Below, in pieces: positions 20,335 through 24,409 of a stretch of 64,000 nucleotides of DNA. Below the pieces are notes generated by a model. That model was given only the letters and a program-made list of their open reading frames with translations, ran no database searches and was not told the origin of the DNA. The translations under genes were made by a program, and so were the position numbers. The DNA lies in IMG/VR virus record IMGVR_UViG_3300045999_009250, positions 1 through 64,000 of that record; one strand, 5' to 3'. The DNA is from a virus. How positions within the stretch are numbered: position 1 is the first letter of the stretch; every line of letters starts with the position of its first letter.

Positions 20335-22068
20335 ATGTCAAACGTACATCAATTATTAGAAAGCGCAGCAGGAAACTGGAAATCACTACAAAGTGATGCT
20401 GCTAAATTAGCTTCTAAATGGACTAAAACAGGTCTATTAGAAGGCTTAACTACTGTGGACAGTAACAATATGTCCCTTTTATTAGAAAACCAAGCAAAAC
20501 AATTAGTAACAGAAACTAACACTGTTGCTTCAAACTCTGGATTCACTTCTGGTACACAAGGTGAAAACTGGGCTGGTATTGCATTACCATTAGTAAGAAA
20601 AGTATTCGGAACTATCGTAGCTAAAGAATTCGTTTCTGTTCAACCAATGAACATGCCTTCTGGTTTAGTATTCTTCTTAGATTTCCAATACGGAAACAAC
20701 AAAAATCCATTTACTGCAGGTTCTTCTTTATATGGTAACAGAAATGCTTCTGGTCAATATCCATTTGCTACTCCAGCAGCTGAAGGCGGTTTATACAACC
20801 CAGCAAACAAATTTACTTACTCTACTAACCAATTCTCAGCTTCTGTTCCATTAACTGGATCTACTGCTGGTGGTGTTTTACCTACTATTGGTGCTGGTAC
20901 TGGTTCAGTAGTTACAGCATCATGGGCTGAATTAAATTTTGATTCTGAATATTCAGCATCAGTAATTGCAAACAGAATATACAAAGTAACTGTTGCTACA
21001 GCTTCTGTATTAACTAACTTTGATCCAGATGCAGTAAGAGGTTTCACTTTAGTATCTGGTTCTACATTTACTGCTTCTAATATTTTACCTCAGTTTACAA
21101 CTTATAACTATACAGCAGGAACTATTAGTTTCTTCTATACAGCTTCAGCTACTTTAGGTGCTAATAATACTGCCGGTGCTTCTGCTACTATTTTCTATAA
21201 CAAAGGTAATAACAGTAGTACATTATCTGGTAATGATGCTAGAGCTGATTTCGAAGCAGATAGAACAGACGTATCTGTACCTAACTCTTTAAGTAGTTCA
21301 AACATCGTAATCCCAGAAATTAATGTTAAAATGCAATCACAAGCCATCACTGCTAAAACTAAAAAGTTAAAAGCTGTATGGACTCCTGAGTTCGCTCAAG
21401 ATTTAAGTGCTTACCAAAACATTGATGCTGAAGCTGAATTAACTAACATCATGAGTGAGTATATTTCAATGGAAATTGACTTAGAAATCTTAGAAATGTT
21501 AATCGAAGATGCTGCAGCTGGTACTGAATACTGGTCAGCAATTAACAACCAAACTATTTCAACCCAAGGTACTATAACTAACTTAGGAACTTCAGGTTAT
21601 TATAACACTCAAGGTCAATGGTTCCAAACTTTAGGTACTAAAATCCAAAAATTAAGCAACAAAATCCACCAATTAACTTTACGTGGAGGTGCTAATTTTA
21701 TCGTAACTTCTCCAACAGTAGCTACTATCTTAGAATCAATCCCAGGATTTGCTTCTACAAGCAATGGTGAAGCTGATCAAATGGAATATGCTTTCGGTGT
21801 ACAAAAAATTGGTACTGTAAACGGTCGTTACAAGGTTTACAAAAATCCTTACATGACTGAGAATTTGATGTTAATGGGTTACAGAGGTAGTCAGTTCCTA
21901 GAAACAGGTGCTGTATTTGCTCCGTACATTCCGTTAATCATGACTCCGTTAGTGTACGATCCAGAAACTTTCACTCCAAGAAAAGGTCTATTAACTCGTT
22001 ACGCTAAGAAAATGTTAAGACCTGAATTCTACGCGAAAATCTATGTTAGTGGTTTAAACACTATCTAA
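20335..22068 (+). CDS. Major capsid protein (T4 gp23-like)
   Basis: 577 residues; HK97 fold, forms the hexamers of the shell. The N-terminal ~65 residues form a helical delta domain with many L-x-E sites (QLLES, GLLEG, LLLEN, LVTET), so the mature protein probably starts near TNTVASNSGFTSG. KAVWTPEFAQDLSAYQNIDA and AELTNIMSEYISMEIDLEI (~345-385) are the gp23 signature, and the C-terminus VYDPETFTPRKGLLTRYAKK is also typical. It is longer than T4 gp23 (521); the excess appears as a Ser/Thr/Ala-rich beta insert at ~145-300. C-ending codons are enriched, as expected for the most abundant protein. Confidence 0.96.
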   Translation: MSNVHQLLESAAGNWKSLQSDAAKLASKWTKTGLLEGLTTVDSNNMSLLLENQAKQLVTETNTVASNSGFTSGTQGENWAGIALPLVRKVFGTIVAKEFVSVQPMNMPSGLVFFLDFQYGNNKNPFTAGSSLYGNRNASGQYPFATPAAEGGLYNPANKFTYSTNQFSASVPLTGSTAGGVLPTIGAGTGSVVTASWAELNFDSEYSASVIANRIYKVTVATASVLTNFDPDAVRGFTLVSGSTFTASNILPQFTTYNYTAGTISFFYTASATLGANNTAGASATIFYNKGNNSSTLSGNDARADFEADRTDVSVPNSLSSSNIVIPEINVKMQSQAITAKTKKLKAVWTPEFAQDLSAYQNIDAEAELTNIMSEYISMEIDLEILEMLIEDAAAGTEYWSAINNQTISTQGTITNLGTSGYYNTQGQWFQTLGTKIQKLSNKIHQLTLRGGANFIVTSPTVATILESIPGFASTSNGEADQMEYAFGVQKIGTVNGRYKVYKNPYMTENLMLMGYRGSQFLETGAVFAPYIPLIMTPLVYDPETFTPRKGLLTRYAKKMLRPEFYAKIYVSGLNTI

Positions 22069-22100
22069 TATTAGATAACACTTTATAACTAAAATTAAAG

Positions 22101-22126
22101 AACCCCACCAAAAGTGGGGTTTTTTC
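22101..22126 (+). terminator. Strong rho-independent terminator after the capsid gene
   Basis: AACCCCAC (22101-22108), loop CAAAA, GTGGGGTT (22114-22121), then Ts. It closes the head module. Confidence 0.9.
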
Positions 22127-22161: not shown

Positions 22162-22179
22162 TTATATAGGCCTATATAA
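22162..22179 (+). promoter_or_regulatory. 18-bp perfect palindrome, candidate operator
   Basis: TTATATAGGCCTATATAA is perfectly self-complementary and lies 30 nt before the ATG of the pentein gene, right after the capsid terminator. This is a typical size for the operator of a dimeric repressor. It could also act as a cruciform or RNA hairpin. I saw no second copy. Confidence 0.4.
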
Positions 22180-22209
22180 TATGTATAGATAAATAAAAAT
22201 AGTTTTAAA

Positions 22210-23124
22210 ATGATAGAAACCCCTTCACAATTAAAGGTTCCAAGTTATGTATTAAACTTCCCCTTTTCTCTAAGCACTGAAAATCCAAACAATATTTGGA
22301 TGGAAGAATTATCACCCGAAGATTTAAAAATTAATAAACCTAAAGCTTATAAACAGTTTATGGATTTATATAATTTTATAGCTGGTGGTTCTTTAGTTTA
22401 TTTATTACCATCGTATGGTGATTATCAAGACCAAGTTTACGTGGCTAATGTGGGAATGCAATTACCCCACATTAAAGACGATAATATTGTGTTATTATCC
22501 AATTTTACTTCCGAACCTAGACAAGGTGAAGAATTAGTAGCAAAACCGTTCTTTAATTTAATGGGTTATAATACTCATCTATGTCCATTTAAATGGGAAG
22601 GTGAAGCAGATTTAAAATACATTGGTGGTAACACTTACATAGGTGGATACGGTCAACGTTCAACTAAAGAAGCTTATGAGTGGATGGAACAAAACTTTGA
22701 TATGAATATTATTAAAATAGAAATGGTTGAACCTTATTTATATCATTTAGATTGTTCAGTATTTCCATTAACTGATAAAAAAACATTAGTTTGTACTGAA
22801 TTATTTACACCTGAAGAATTAGAAGAAATAGGAAAATATACAGAAATTATTGATATTAGTGTTGATGATGCTTTTGGTGGATTAACAAATTCAGTAAGAA
22901 TGGGAAATATGATTTTATGTGCATCTAACATTTCAGAATTAAAACGTACTGATCCTTTATATGAGTTAGAAAAACATAAAATAGATACATTAGAAAGAAT
23001 ATGCGCTAATGAAGGTTTAGAACCAGTTATATTCAATTTATCAGAATATATGAAATCAGGTGCTATGTTATCATGCTGTGTAATGCACTTAAATTATGTT
23101 GATTATACTAAATCATTAATATAA
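22210..23124 (+). CDS. Pentein-fold guanidino-group enzyme (DDAH/amidinotransferase-like)
   Basis: 304 residues. Penteins act on arginine-type guanidinium groups through a Cys/His/acid site. Seen here: VYVANVG (~77-82, first blade strand), SEPRQGEE (~101-108, Arg), GEADLKYIGGNTYIGGYGQR (131-150, equivalent to EGGD...FVGxSxRT of DDAH), YHLDCSVFPL (178-187, His179 and Asp181, matching HLKxxxxxL), NSVRMGN (~227-233) and SGAMLSCCVMHLN (283-295) with the nucleophile Cys289 or Cys290. This order is that of dimethylarginine dimethylaminohydrolase and arginine deiminase relatives. Substrate cannot be fixed: hydrolase or transferase are both possible. The stop overlaps the next ATG (TAATG), so it is translated with the decarboxylase-like gene. 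Confidence 0.75.
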   Translation: MIETPSQLKVPSYVLNFPFSLSTENPNNIWMEELSPEDLKINKPKAYKQFMDLYNFIAGGSLVYLLPSYGDYQDQVYVANVGMQLPHIKDDNIVLLSNFTSEPRQGEELVAKPFFNLMGYNTHLCPFKWEGEADLKYIGGNTYIGGYGQRSTKEAYEWMEQNFDMNIIKIEMVEPYLYHLDCSVFPLTDKKTLVCTELFTPEELEEIGKYTEIIDISVDDAFGGLTNSVRMGNMILCASNISELKRTDPLYELEKHKIDTLERICANEGLEPVIFNLSEYMKSGAMLSCCVMHLNYVDYTKSLI

Positions 23125-23840
23125 TGGCTAAAACATTAAAAGACTGGATTAATACAGATGTAAAAAAGGCTGAAAAAATGTCTATTGAACAATTATCAAA
23201 TCAATTTTTCTTTAGAGATCCTTTAAGAACAATGTATATTGATAATGAACATTTTTATTCACCAGCTGATGGAACTATCTTATATCAAAAAGTAATTAAT
23301 GATCCTACTGAACCTATTGTGGAAATTAAAGGTATAAATTATACTTTACAAGATGCAATGGGTGATAAAGATTATAACAAACCATCTTTAGTTGTTGGTA
23401 TATTTATGTCATTTTATGATCCTCACATTATAAGAATTCCATATGGTGGTGTTATTGATTATGAATATTTAGAGGCAATAGAATCAACAAATAAGCCTAT
23501 GTTAGCAACCGAAAAAGATATCTTTAACGGTAAAATTAACCCAGCAAATCTAGAATATCTTAAAAATAATGAAAGAATGAAAATAAAAATAAATTCACTT
23601 TCTTTAGAATATCAATATAATATGTGTTTAATAGCTGATGAAGATGTAAATGTTATATCTTCATTTAAAAAACAACAAGATATATGTTCACAAAACGATA
23701 GATTTGGGTTAGTGCGTTGGGGTAGTCAAACAGAATTAATATTACCTTTAGATAAGCGCTTTGATTTTGAACTATGTCAAGAGGATCACACCCATGTTGA
23801 GGCTGGTTTGGATAAGTTAATAAAAATAAAATGGAAATAA
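23124..23840 (+). CDS. Phosphatidylserine decarboxylase-like pyruvoyl enzyme
   Basis: 238 residues. This family makes phosphatidylethanolamine from phosphatidylserine after self-cleavage creates a pyruvoyl group. Seen: FFRDPLR (29-35), FYSPADGTI (44-52, catalytic Asp49), VEIKGINYTLQDAMG (66-80), FYDPHIIRIPYGG (97-109, His101), and RFGLVRWGSQTELILP (cleavage between Gly200 and Ser201), matching the usual F-x-x-GST motif. Asp, His and Ser of the autoprocessing triad are all kept. It lacks the N-terminal membrane region of bacterial Psd, like the short Psd-related soluble forms. It may act on phosphatidylserine or on a related substrate. ATG overlaps the pentein stop. Confidence 0.78.
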   Translation: MAKTLKDWINTDVKKAEKMSIEQLSNQFFFRDPLRTMYIDNEHFYSPADGTILYQKVINDPTEPIVEIKGINYTLQDAMGDKDYNKPSLVVGIFMSFYDPHIIRIPYGGVIDYEYLEAIESTNKPMLATEKDIFNGKINPANLEYLKNNERMKIKINSLSLEYQYNMCLIADEDVNVISSFKKQQDICSQNDRFGLVRWGSQTELILPLDKRFDFELCQEDHTHVEAGLDKLIKIKWK

Positions 23841-24409
23841 AAACGGTAAATATTTATTTTTTACATAATGATGACAATATACCTTTTTATATTGGAAAAA
23901 CAAACAATATTAAGGATAGAATAAATAATCATAAAAGAACATTTGGTAAAAAAACTATTTTAGAAATAATAGATGTTGTAGATATAAAAGAATGGAAATT
24001 TTGGGAAAAATATTGGATATCTCAATTTAAAATGTGGGGGTTTATTCTTTTAAATAAAAATAAAGGAGGAGGAGGACCGGATTTTCATGATGATGAAATT
24101 AAAAAATTAATAAGTAAAAATAAAAAAGTTACCGGATATAAAGATAATGAATTAAGAAAACAAAATATTAGCAAATCAAATAAAGGAAAACCAAATTCTA
24201 TGAAAGGAAAAAAACAACCACAAGAATATGTTATAAAACGAGCTGAATCTAATAGAAAACCATGTTTGCAATTAAAAGATGGAATATTAATTAAAGAATG
24301 GTTAAGTAGTAGTGAAGCAAATGATGTTTATAACGGTGTTAATAACGTATTAAACGGTAGAGCTAAAACAGCTCATGGTTATGTATGGTTATGGAAAAAT
24401 GATAAATAA
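23831..24409 (+). CDS. GIY-YIG homing endonuclease
   Basis: 192 residues. NIYFLHNDDNIPFYIGKTNN (~7-26) is the GIY-YIG core, with the catalytic Arg in IKDRINNHKR and the Glu in WEKYWISQF. The C-terminal part has Lys-rich NUMOD3-like repeats (NISKSNKGKPNSMKGKKQP) and a NUMOD1-type end (IKEWLSSSEANDVYNG ... GYVWLWK). It overlaps the decarboxylase gene by 10 nt, without shortening its conserved core. A mobile gene inserted in the intergenic space before phoH. It has no box of its own. Confidence 0.9.
   Translation: MEIKTVNIYFLHNDDNIPFYIGKTNNIKDRINNHKRTFGKKTILEIIDVVDIKEWKFWEKYWISQFKMWGFILLNKNKGGGGPDFHDDEIKKLISKNKKVTGYKDNELRKQNISKSNKGKPNSMKGKKQPQEYVIKRAESNRKPCLQLKDGILIKEWLSSSEANDVYNGVNNVLNGRAKTAHGYVWLWKNDK

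Follow-up and report, generated by a model that had tools for sequence, protein, structure and literature searches.

Linked pentein and phosphatidylserine decarboxylase-like genes in large phages: a possible two-enzyme route from arginine to putrescine

Introduction

Pyruvoyl enzymes of the AdoMetDC family that decarboxylate ornithine or arginine occur in phage genomes, and spermidine is needed for T4 DNA synthesis and maturation, according to extracts of a survey (PMC9992855) in which arginase homologues are reported from giant viruses and none from phage; extracts of PMC10407285 and PMC7226272 give further background on phage polyamines. The AdoMetDC-derived enzymes SpeDC and SpeDA are described in parts of PMC9992855 and PMC10407285 as pyruvoyl enzymes that phages, like bacteria, have recruited to make polyamines. 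The terms 'phosphatidylserine decarboxylase' and 'arginine dihydrolase' occur in neither of the main texts of these two papers. Phosphatidylserine decarboxylase (PSD) is reported among ocean virus genes (PMC11360552).

The enzymes most similar to the two proteins studied here are the arginine dihydrolase domain of the cyanobacterial ArgZ (Sll1336) and AgrE (Alr4995), which converts arginine to ornithine, the short-type PSDs (PF02666; PRK05305/TIGR00164), and PsiD, an L-tryptophan decarboxylase that has the PSD fold and acts on a free amino acid. Here we describe a linked pair of genes, encoding a pentein and a PSD-like protein, which is carried by many large phages, including Campylobacter and Bacteroides phages. 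Among the matches listed in a search of open-licence full texts, we found no literature linking the two genes or explaining the pair.

Results

The pair lies in the window, by which we mean the whole stretch of 64,000 nucleotides that was analysed, itself part of a virus record of 171,684 bases. The relevant features are as follows.

20335 to 22068, plus strand: gp23-like major capsid protein gene (PF07068, E 3e-77)
22097 to 22125, plus strand: intrinsic terminator 3' of the major capsid gene, with a 12-pair stem and T tract
22162 to 22179, no strand: 18-bp perfect palindrome TTATATAGGCCTATATAA
22180 to 22187, plus strand: late-promoter-like element TATGTATA
22210 to 23124, plus strand: pentein, arginine-dihydrolase-like, 304 aa (putative nucleophile C289; H179, D181, N80, R104, R150)
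23124 to 23840, plus strand: PSD-family pyruvoyl decarboxylase-like protein, 238 aa (D49, H101, G200-S201-Q202, E130, D172)
23721 to 23726, plus strand: Gly200-Ser201 codons, predicted self-cleavage site yielding the pyruvoyl group (computed from the ORF coordinates; motif invariant)
23831 to 24409, plus strand: GIY-YIG homing endonuclease gene, overlapping the 3' end of the PSD-like gene
After the GIY-YIG homing endonuclease gene: PhoH-like gene, named by eye

Both genes of the pair are real and intact. Their ORFs overlap by one base, the A of TAATG being common to both, and this overlap, with the family and fold matches given below, bears out the preliminary description of a guanidino-acting pentein translationally coupled to a PSD-family pyruvoyl enzyme. 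Compared to its relative at locus L010, the pentein gene has 0.058 non-synonymous and 0.377 synonymous changes per site, and is therefore under purifying selection; the corresponding values for the PSD-like gene, from a gap-free and less sure comparison, are 0.284 and 0.798.

The region upstream of the pair contains several candidate regulatory elements. A scan revealed 4 terminator-like sites in the region compared to 0.8 expected from shuffles, and the terminator at 22097-22125, which had been proposed to separate the capsid gene from the pair, was among them. The palindrome at 22162-22179 was the only one with arms of at least 9 in 511 non-overlapping slices of 125 nt, a scan blind to palindromes that cross slice borders. 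Upstream perfect palindromes in 24 relatives reached arms of no more than 2 to 6 bp, and the 12-bp core was kept in 2 of these relatives; the palindrome itself is present as first described, but its proposed role as an operator was rejected because it is not conserved. A second element, TAT[G/T]TATA, which we take to resemble the T4 late promoter TATAAATA, occurs in 26 copies on the plus strand of the window. Fourteen of these copies precede one of 51 ORF starts by 8-70 nt, compared to 1.3 expected by length alone; the pattern was defined with the sequence already in view, and because gaps are AT-rich the real expectation is higher than 1.3. The element was also found 22-44 nt upstream of the pentein gene in 19 of 24 relatives (60-nt zone searched). 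Its presence, together with the terminator, suggests that the pair is a separate, probably late, transcription unit, which would be expressed late in infection from a dedicated late promoter next to the capsid gene.

To assess the linkage of the two genes, we used the best 80 loci or fewer from each of four scans of viral contigs, which had reported 170, 28, 208, and 214 relatives. Both genes were present in 175 of the 179 viral loci in this set, and all four singles were at contig ends; after merging identical sequences the count was 122 of 126. Spacing was 25 nt or less in 173 of the 175 pairs of the set, inserts of about 0.75 and 1.05 kb separated the genes in two loci, and 102 of the 122 distinct pairs showed the same one-base overlap. 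The two genes are inherited together in phages. One of the observations named beforehand as speaking against the first interpretation was the occurrence of relatives with either gene alone at random places; no such phage appeared among these loci apart from the singles at contig ends, and the co-inheritance agrees with the suggestion that both genes probably serve one pathway.

We then anchored the survey on the capsid gene, using the best 80 of 312 relatives, of which 59 loci had 2 kb of room downstream and 21 had too little. The 59 loci comprised 43 with both genes, 15 with neither, and 1 in which the pentein gene was cut by the contig end; the unit was thus apparently gained or lost whole. 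In the 15 loci lacking the pair, an absence that applies to the locus and not to whole genomes, phoH followed gp23 directly or within up to about 1.4 kb.

Comparison with 50,697 phage records showed that the same 46 records match both proteins, 40 from Campylobacter and 6 from Bacteroides phages (lists compared by eye); when the window's own proteins were the queries, 45 and 46 records were matched. The 40 Campylobacter records, which include RefSeq duplicates and one record with fragmented genes (PP921807), are the same set as that found by a Fletchervirus terminase at E ≤ 1e-60, which defines the scope of the Campylobacter phages here. In these records the genes are annotated, separately and without a link, as 'amidinotransferase' and 'phosphatidylserine decarboxylase', or carry no annotation. 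The preliminary description did not know the pair from phages; both genes match in all 40 of these records, though under such separate annotations or none. The two genes adjoin in Bacteroides phage DAC19 and are far apart in Campylobacter phage CPX (28,995-29,762 and 122,512-123,495); since both are kept without adjacency in CPX, a joint function can be argued. When a plasmid collection was searched with the Sulfurimonas pentein as sole query, nothing matched at E ≤ 1e-20.

We next placed the pentein. Against Pfam it matched nothing at E ≤ 1, and it scored 88 bits with the NCBIfam DDAH model NF045659 (curated cut-off 300) and 70 bits with the arginine dihydrolase model NF052232 (curated cut-off 450), far under both. 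Relative to the cut-offs, the DDAH score is slightly the better of the two. Other pentein copies scored 85-87 bits (two bacterial) and 51-79 bits (two phage) with NF052232. A strong match was obtained to phrog_12759 (E 3.5e-60), labelled as unknown function in PHROGs. In the PDB, a profile of 23 sequences retrieved ArgZ/AgrE and nothing else at E ≤ 0.001 (E 2e-23 to 1e-20), and the extra matches of a broader pentein profile were all above E 0.1. Structure prediction (pLDDT 87.9) gave the same neighbor: ArgZ was the best Foldseek match (E 2.5e-18), and in VIA it reached Z 31.8, with 2.1 Å over 264 residues, compared to 26.6 for AstB (also a dihydrolase), 25.6 for DDAH, 25.2 for arginine deiminase, 23.2 for SxtG, 22.8 for AGAT, and 20.1 for agmatine deiminase. 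The protein has the pentein fold across nearly its whole length, with ArgZ as its nearest solved relative. It differs from ArgZ/AgrE in that identity is only 24% across the structural alignment and in that the phage protein stands alone, without the ornithine cyclodeaminase domain.

On the alignment, the pentein keeps the catalytic residues of these dihydrolases. N80 and C289 of the window align with N71 and C264 of the N71S and wild-type chains of ArgZ/AgrE, two residues that the PDB titles of the N71S and C264S chains link to catalysis. In an alignment of 52 copies, which leaves out the truncated or disrupted bacterial copies L199, L215, and L224, the set N28, N80, R104, E130, R150, H179, D181, and C289 is common to 51; it corresponds to N22, N71, R90, E118, R139, H168, D170, and C264 of AgrE, numbered by counting along the printed alignment. 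We take R90 and R139 of AgrE to hold the arginine carboxylate. H179 and D181 are kept in all 52 copies, N80 and C289 in 51, the one exception among the aligned copies being L196 of Streptoalloteichus; further exceptions to the set occur in Streptoalloteichus and in G460. Both Streptoalloteichus pentein copies lack the catalytic Cys, and PSD-like genes persist next to them.

The PSD-like protein matched PF02666 (E 5e-21; 75.7 bits compared to a gathering score of 22), the sole Pfam family at E ≤ 1, and no AdoMetDC homology was found, which sets its protein family apart from that of SpeDC and SpeDA. With the curated PSD equivalog models its best score was 80 bits compared to a cut-off of 183, and all 14 listed models were below cut-off. 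Since the arginine dihydrolase and PSD cut-offs are both missed, neither family name should be assigned outright. In the HMM and fold searches proposed in the preliminary description, the PSD-like protein passed the Pfam cut-off and the pentein matched the ArgZ/AgrE structures strongly but stayed below the cut-offs of the DDAH and arginine dihydrolase models. A match to phrog_12670 (E 1e-38) again carries the PHROGs label of unknown function. Of the catalytic residues first named for the two proteins, H179, D181, C289, and the EGEAD motif of the pentein and D49, H101, and G200-S201 of the PSD-like protein are conserved, but C290 is not.

The PSD-like protein shares with short-type PSDs the family, the Asp/His/Gly-Ser motifs and the predicted pyruvoyl chemistry, but differs from them at several positions. 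H101 corresponds in the alignment to the first of the two His residues in the E. coli PSD DYHRVH motif; the second is Arg here, a single His being also present in the nine short-type ordinary PSDs compared. Across 18 ordinary PSDs and 58 PSD-like rows, which represent 55 genes with three duplicated and omit L218, L223, and L224, Q202 of a Gly-Ser-Gln site was found in 58/58 rows compared to R, C, T, or S in 18/18 ordinary enzymes, so that a GSR or GST/GSS-type cleavage site is lacking; D172 and E130 are likewise invariant in the 58 rows, the first being G or A and the second H, K, R, N, or a gap in ordinary PSDs. In a tree of 61 rows, which carried long-branch warnings and left DAC19 and CPX unplaced among the PSD-like rows, 43 PSD-like rows split with SH-aLRT 98 from the 18 ordinary PSDs, which the same genomes also encode, so that the protein belongs to a clade apart from ordinary phosphatidylserine decarboxylases. 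A second, higher-scoring PF02666 gene was present in 27 of the 34 carrier genomes searched, a set without L219 and including the L190 MAG, where the gene sits on a phage contig. The median N-terminal hydropathy maximum was -0.21 in the 58 PSD-like rows compared to 1.22 in the 18 ordinary PSDs, with overlapping ranges (-1.03 to 1.84 and 0.26 to 2.36). The invariant Gly-Ser-Gln and the two gained acidic residues fit a small cationic substrate, and judging by these sequence features the protein would be soluble and act on a small cationic amino acid.

Structure comparison added less. For the predicted model (pLDDT 83.6) the top five Foldseek matches were all PsiD and all weak (E 1.5e-3 to 9.6e-3, TM 0.45); identity to PsiD is about 10%, and a different substrate is expected. 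In VIA the IIAGlc glucose phosphocarrier scored best (Z 11.7), above E. coli PSD (10.3) and PsiD (9.7), so that fold alone decides little; on the placement of this protein, sequence says more than fold. The only matches below E 0.001 in a viral structure library were three giant-virus PSDs, one without a name.

A genome scan gave 35 loci, one of which (L190) lies on a contig carrying gp23 (by eye) and was counted as phage, leaving 34 bacterial loci. In 31 of these the PSD-like gene is followed by the pentein gene 56-202 nt downstream, the reverse of the phage order. Record titles assign the 31 neighboring pairs to Verrucomicrobiota, Actinomycetota, Campylobacterota, Pseudomonadota, Latescibacterota, and Eisenbacteria, except for two that belong to untitled bacteria. 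In 24 of the 34 loci a MATE gene is present no more than about 2 kb from the pair, on the opposite strand in the 11 Verrucomicrobiales loci and on the same strand in 13 others, and an MsbA-related ABC exporter is near the pair in a Methylococcaceae locus; no MATE match was found at the Actinomycetota loci L196, L203, L205, L219, and L222. The three loci without a neighboring pentein gene are L223, where the PSD-like gene is truncated at a contig end, L193, where a pentein and a MATE-like gene (by eye) lie about 0.6 Mb off on the same chromosome, and the KSB1 locus L191, where an amidinotransferase closest to SxtG/HsvA/AGAT (best E 2e-154) adjoins the PSD-like gene and a pair-type pentein is present on another contig of the genome. 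L191 is the one bacterial locus with a different arginine-acting partner beside the PSD-like gene. Amidinotransferases of the SxtG/HsvA/AGAT type also release ornithine from arginine.

Bacterial carriage of the pair is rare. A search for a Campylobacterota source of the Campylobacter phage genes found the pentein in 1 of 298 genomes sampled, the Sulfurimonas MAG used as the center. Searching 337 Verrucomicrobiota gave 7 pentein matches at E ≤ 0.001. Two were strong (E < 1e-90), and their genomes also carry the PSD-like gene (E ≤ 1e-30); one of these genomes, G460, has the phage gene order and virus-like neighbors (by eye).

Discussion

Our preferred reading, to which we give an even chance, is that the pair forms an arginine-to-ornithine-to-putrescine pathway made late in infection. 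In the first step the ArgZ-type pentein would strip the guanidino group off L-arginine through a covalent intermediate at C289, yielding L-ornithine, ammonia, and CO2. In the second step the PSD-fold protein would cut itself between G200 and S201, converting S201 to a pyruvoyl group, and would decarboxylate L-ornithine to putrescine, so that the pair may need no pyridoxal phosphate. The polyamine could be used for DNA condensation, packaging, and late synthesis, and in bacteria the nearby MATE exporter would presumably export the product. The wider claim is one in which our confidence falls a little short of even: a new two-enzyme route combining an ArgZ-type dihydrolase with a new class of pyruvoyl ornithine decarboxylase, derived from the PSD family by a change of charge at the substrate site, and occurring as a sealed two-gene unit in T4-like phages, Campylobacter and Bacteroides phages, and bacteria of at least 6 phyla, usually joined by a MATE exporter.

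If true, the pathway would provide the first arginine-to-ornithine step and the first complete arginine-to-putrescine pathway in tailed phages, within the scope of the extracts of PMC9992855, leading from arginine straight to polyamine without a host enzyme. The conserved 'amidinotransferase' and 'phosphatidylserine decarboxylase' genes found in the 40 Fletchervirus-type Campylobacter phage records, and their counterparts in cultured Bacteroides phages and in some two hundred viral-contig matches, would gain a testable function. The lipid annotation, which misleads, would be corrected, ornithine decarboxylation would have one more pyruvoyl protein family, and a bacterial operon of decarboxylase, pentein and, often, exporter would be named.

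An alternative that we consider improbable is that the pentein is an amidinotransferase, moving the amidino group of arginine to an amine made by the PSD-like decarboxylase, the resulting guanidino compound being exported by bacteria and put to use inside the cell by phages. The amidinotransferase that follows the PSD-like gene in KSB1 and the MATE genes of the bacterial loci are consistent with such chemistry, but the pentein is nearer the dihydrolases by sequence and fold (VIA Z 31.8 compared to 21.6-23.2), and the KSB1 genome has the pair-type pentein as well.

Less probable still is an agmatine route, in which the PSD-like enzyme would be an arginine decarboxylase and the pentein would convert agmatine to putrescine or N-carbamoylputrescine. 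E130 and D172 would suit this cationic substrate too, and phages have pyruvoyl arginine decarboxylases of another family (extracts of PMC9992855). Against this, agmatine deiminases are further from the pentein (VIA Z about 20). The pentein also keeps the equivalents of AgrE R90 and R139, presumed ligands of a carboxylate and unneeded for agmatine.

We regard a role in DNA base modification (7-deazaguanine, or a putrescinyl- or aminoacyl-base) as very unlikely. The phage of the window has QueC, PTPS (QueD-type), a radical-SAM QueE-like protein, and GTP cyclohydrolase I, and QueC was found in 10 of 15 pair-bearing records searched. This role was set aside since QueC is absent from the full DAC19 and CPX records, both of which bear the pair (the three other records lacking it are fragments), and since in bacteria the pair sits on chromosomes in the vicinity of an exporter gene.

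The remodeling of host lipids first suggested for the pair, by a true PSD making phosphatidylethanolamine and a pentein modifying amino-acid lipids, has PF02666 membership above the gathering score in its favor, but we dropped it as the least probable reading in view of the separate clade, the altered residues at or near the cleavage site (the GSQ that every PSD-like row shows and the gain of two acidic residues), the ordinary PSD also present in 27 of 34 carriers, and an N-terminus that is mostly less hydrophobic, with overlapping ranges.

Several observations were counted against the arginine-to-putrescine pathway, namely the Streptoalloteichus penteins described above, the missed curated cut-offs, the weak fold matches of the PSD-like protein, and a mixed complement of polyamine genes. 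Across the 34 carrier genomes this complement showed no clean pattern, giving neither proof nor exclusion of putrescine as the product. PF02784 was present in 32 genomes (as a single copy, possibly LysA, in 17), PF01564 in 25, and PF01276 above cut-off in 6; speA was above cut-off in 7, so putrescine from the pair would be redundant there, and fragmentary in more. The MATE exporter fits a secreted guanidino product equally well.

Variation at the pair in viruses and bacteria

The pentein and PSD-like genes are not contiguous in two viral contigs, being separated by inserts of ~0.75 kb in L005 (1904-2660) and ~1.05 kb in L179 (5579-6631). Fifteen capsid loci from close relatives (L280-L283, L287, L290, L293, L309, L312, L322, L329, L337, L340, L346, and L354) were found without the pair, and in some of these the gap between gp23, the major capsid gene, and phoH was filled by ~1 kb of other sequence. 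In 2 phages, that of the window and Campylobacter phage CPX (L003), the end of the PSD-like gene is overlapped by a homing endonuclease gene:

Window 23831-24409, GIY-YIG homing endonuclease gene
L003 6740-8185, homing endonuclease gene annotated as Hef-like

A divergent pair with its genes in phage order was present on a 121 kb contig of the Verrucomicrobiota genome G460 (L275), where the neighbouring genes appeared virus-like when judged by eye and the pentein carries Ser at the position of N80, which aligns with N71 of ArgZ/AgrE. Streptoalloteichus hindustanus has the operon twice (L196/L258 and L261); the catalytic Cys is replaced by Arg and Ser in the two penteins, and the PSD-like genes are retained. 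In a KSB1 bacterium (L191, 598-2428), an SxtG/HsvA/AGAT-type amidinotransferase gene follows the PSD-like gene, in the position usually taken by the pentein.

Other features of the window's phage

A TAT[G/T]TATA element is enriched just upstream of ORF starts across the whole window, and is likely a late promoter of this phage group. Four genes in L184 (record bases 64001-82000) probably constitute a 7-deazaguanine DNA modification set:

L184 3832-4731, QueC
L184 6016-6480, PTPS (QueD-type)
L184 6480-7259, radical-SAM QueE-like
L184 9985-10659, GTP cyclohydrolase I

The same phage also encodes a patatin-like phospholipase (L188, 2424-3317).
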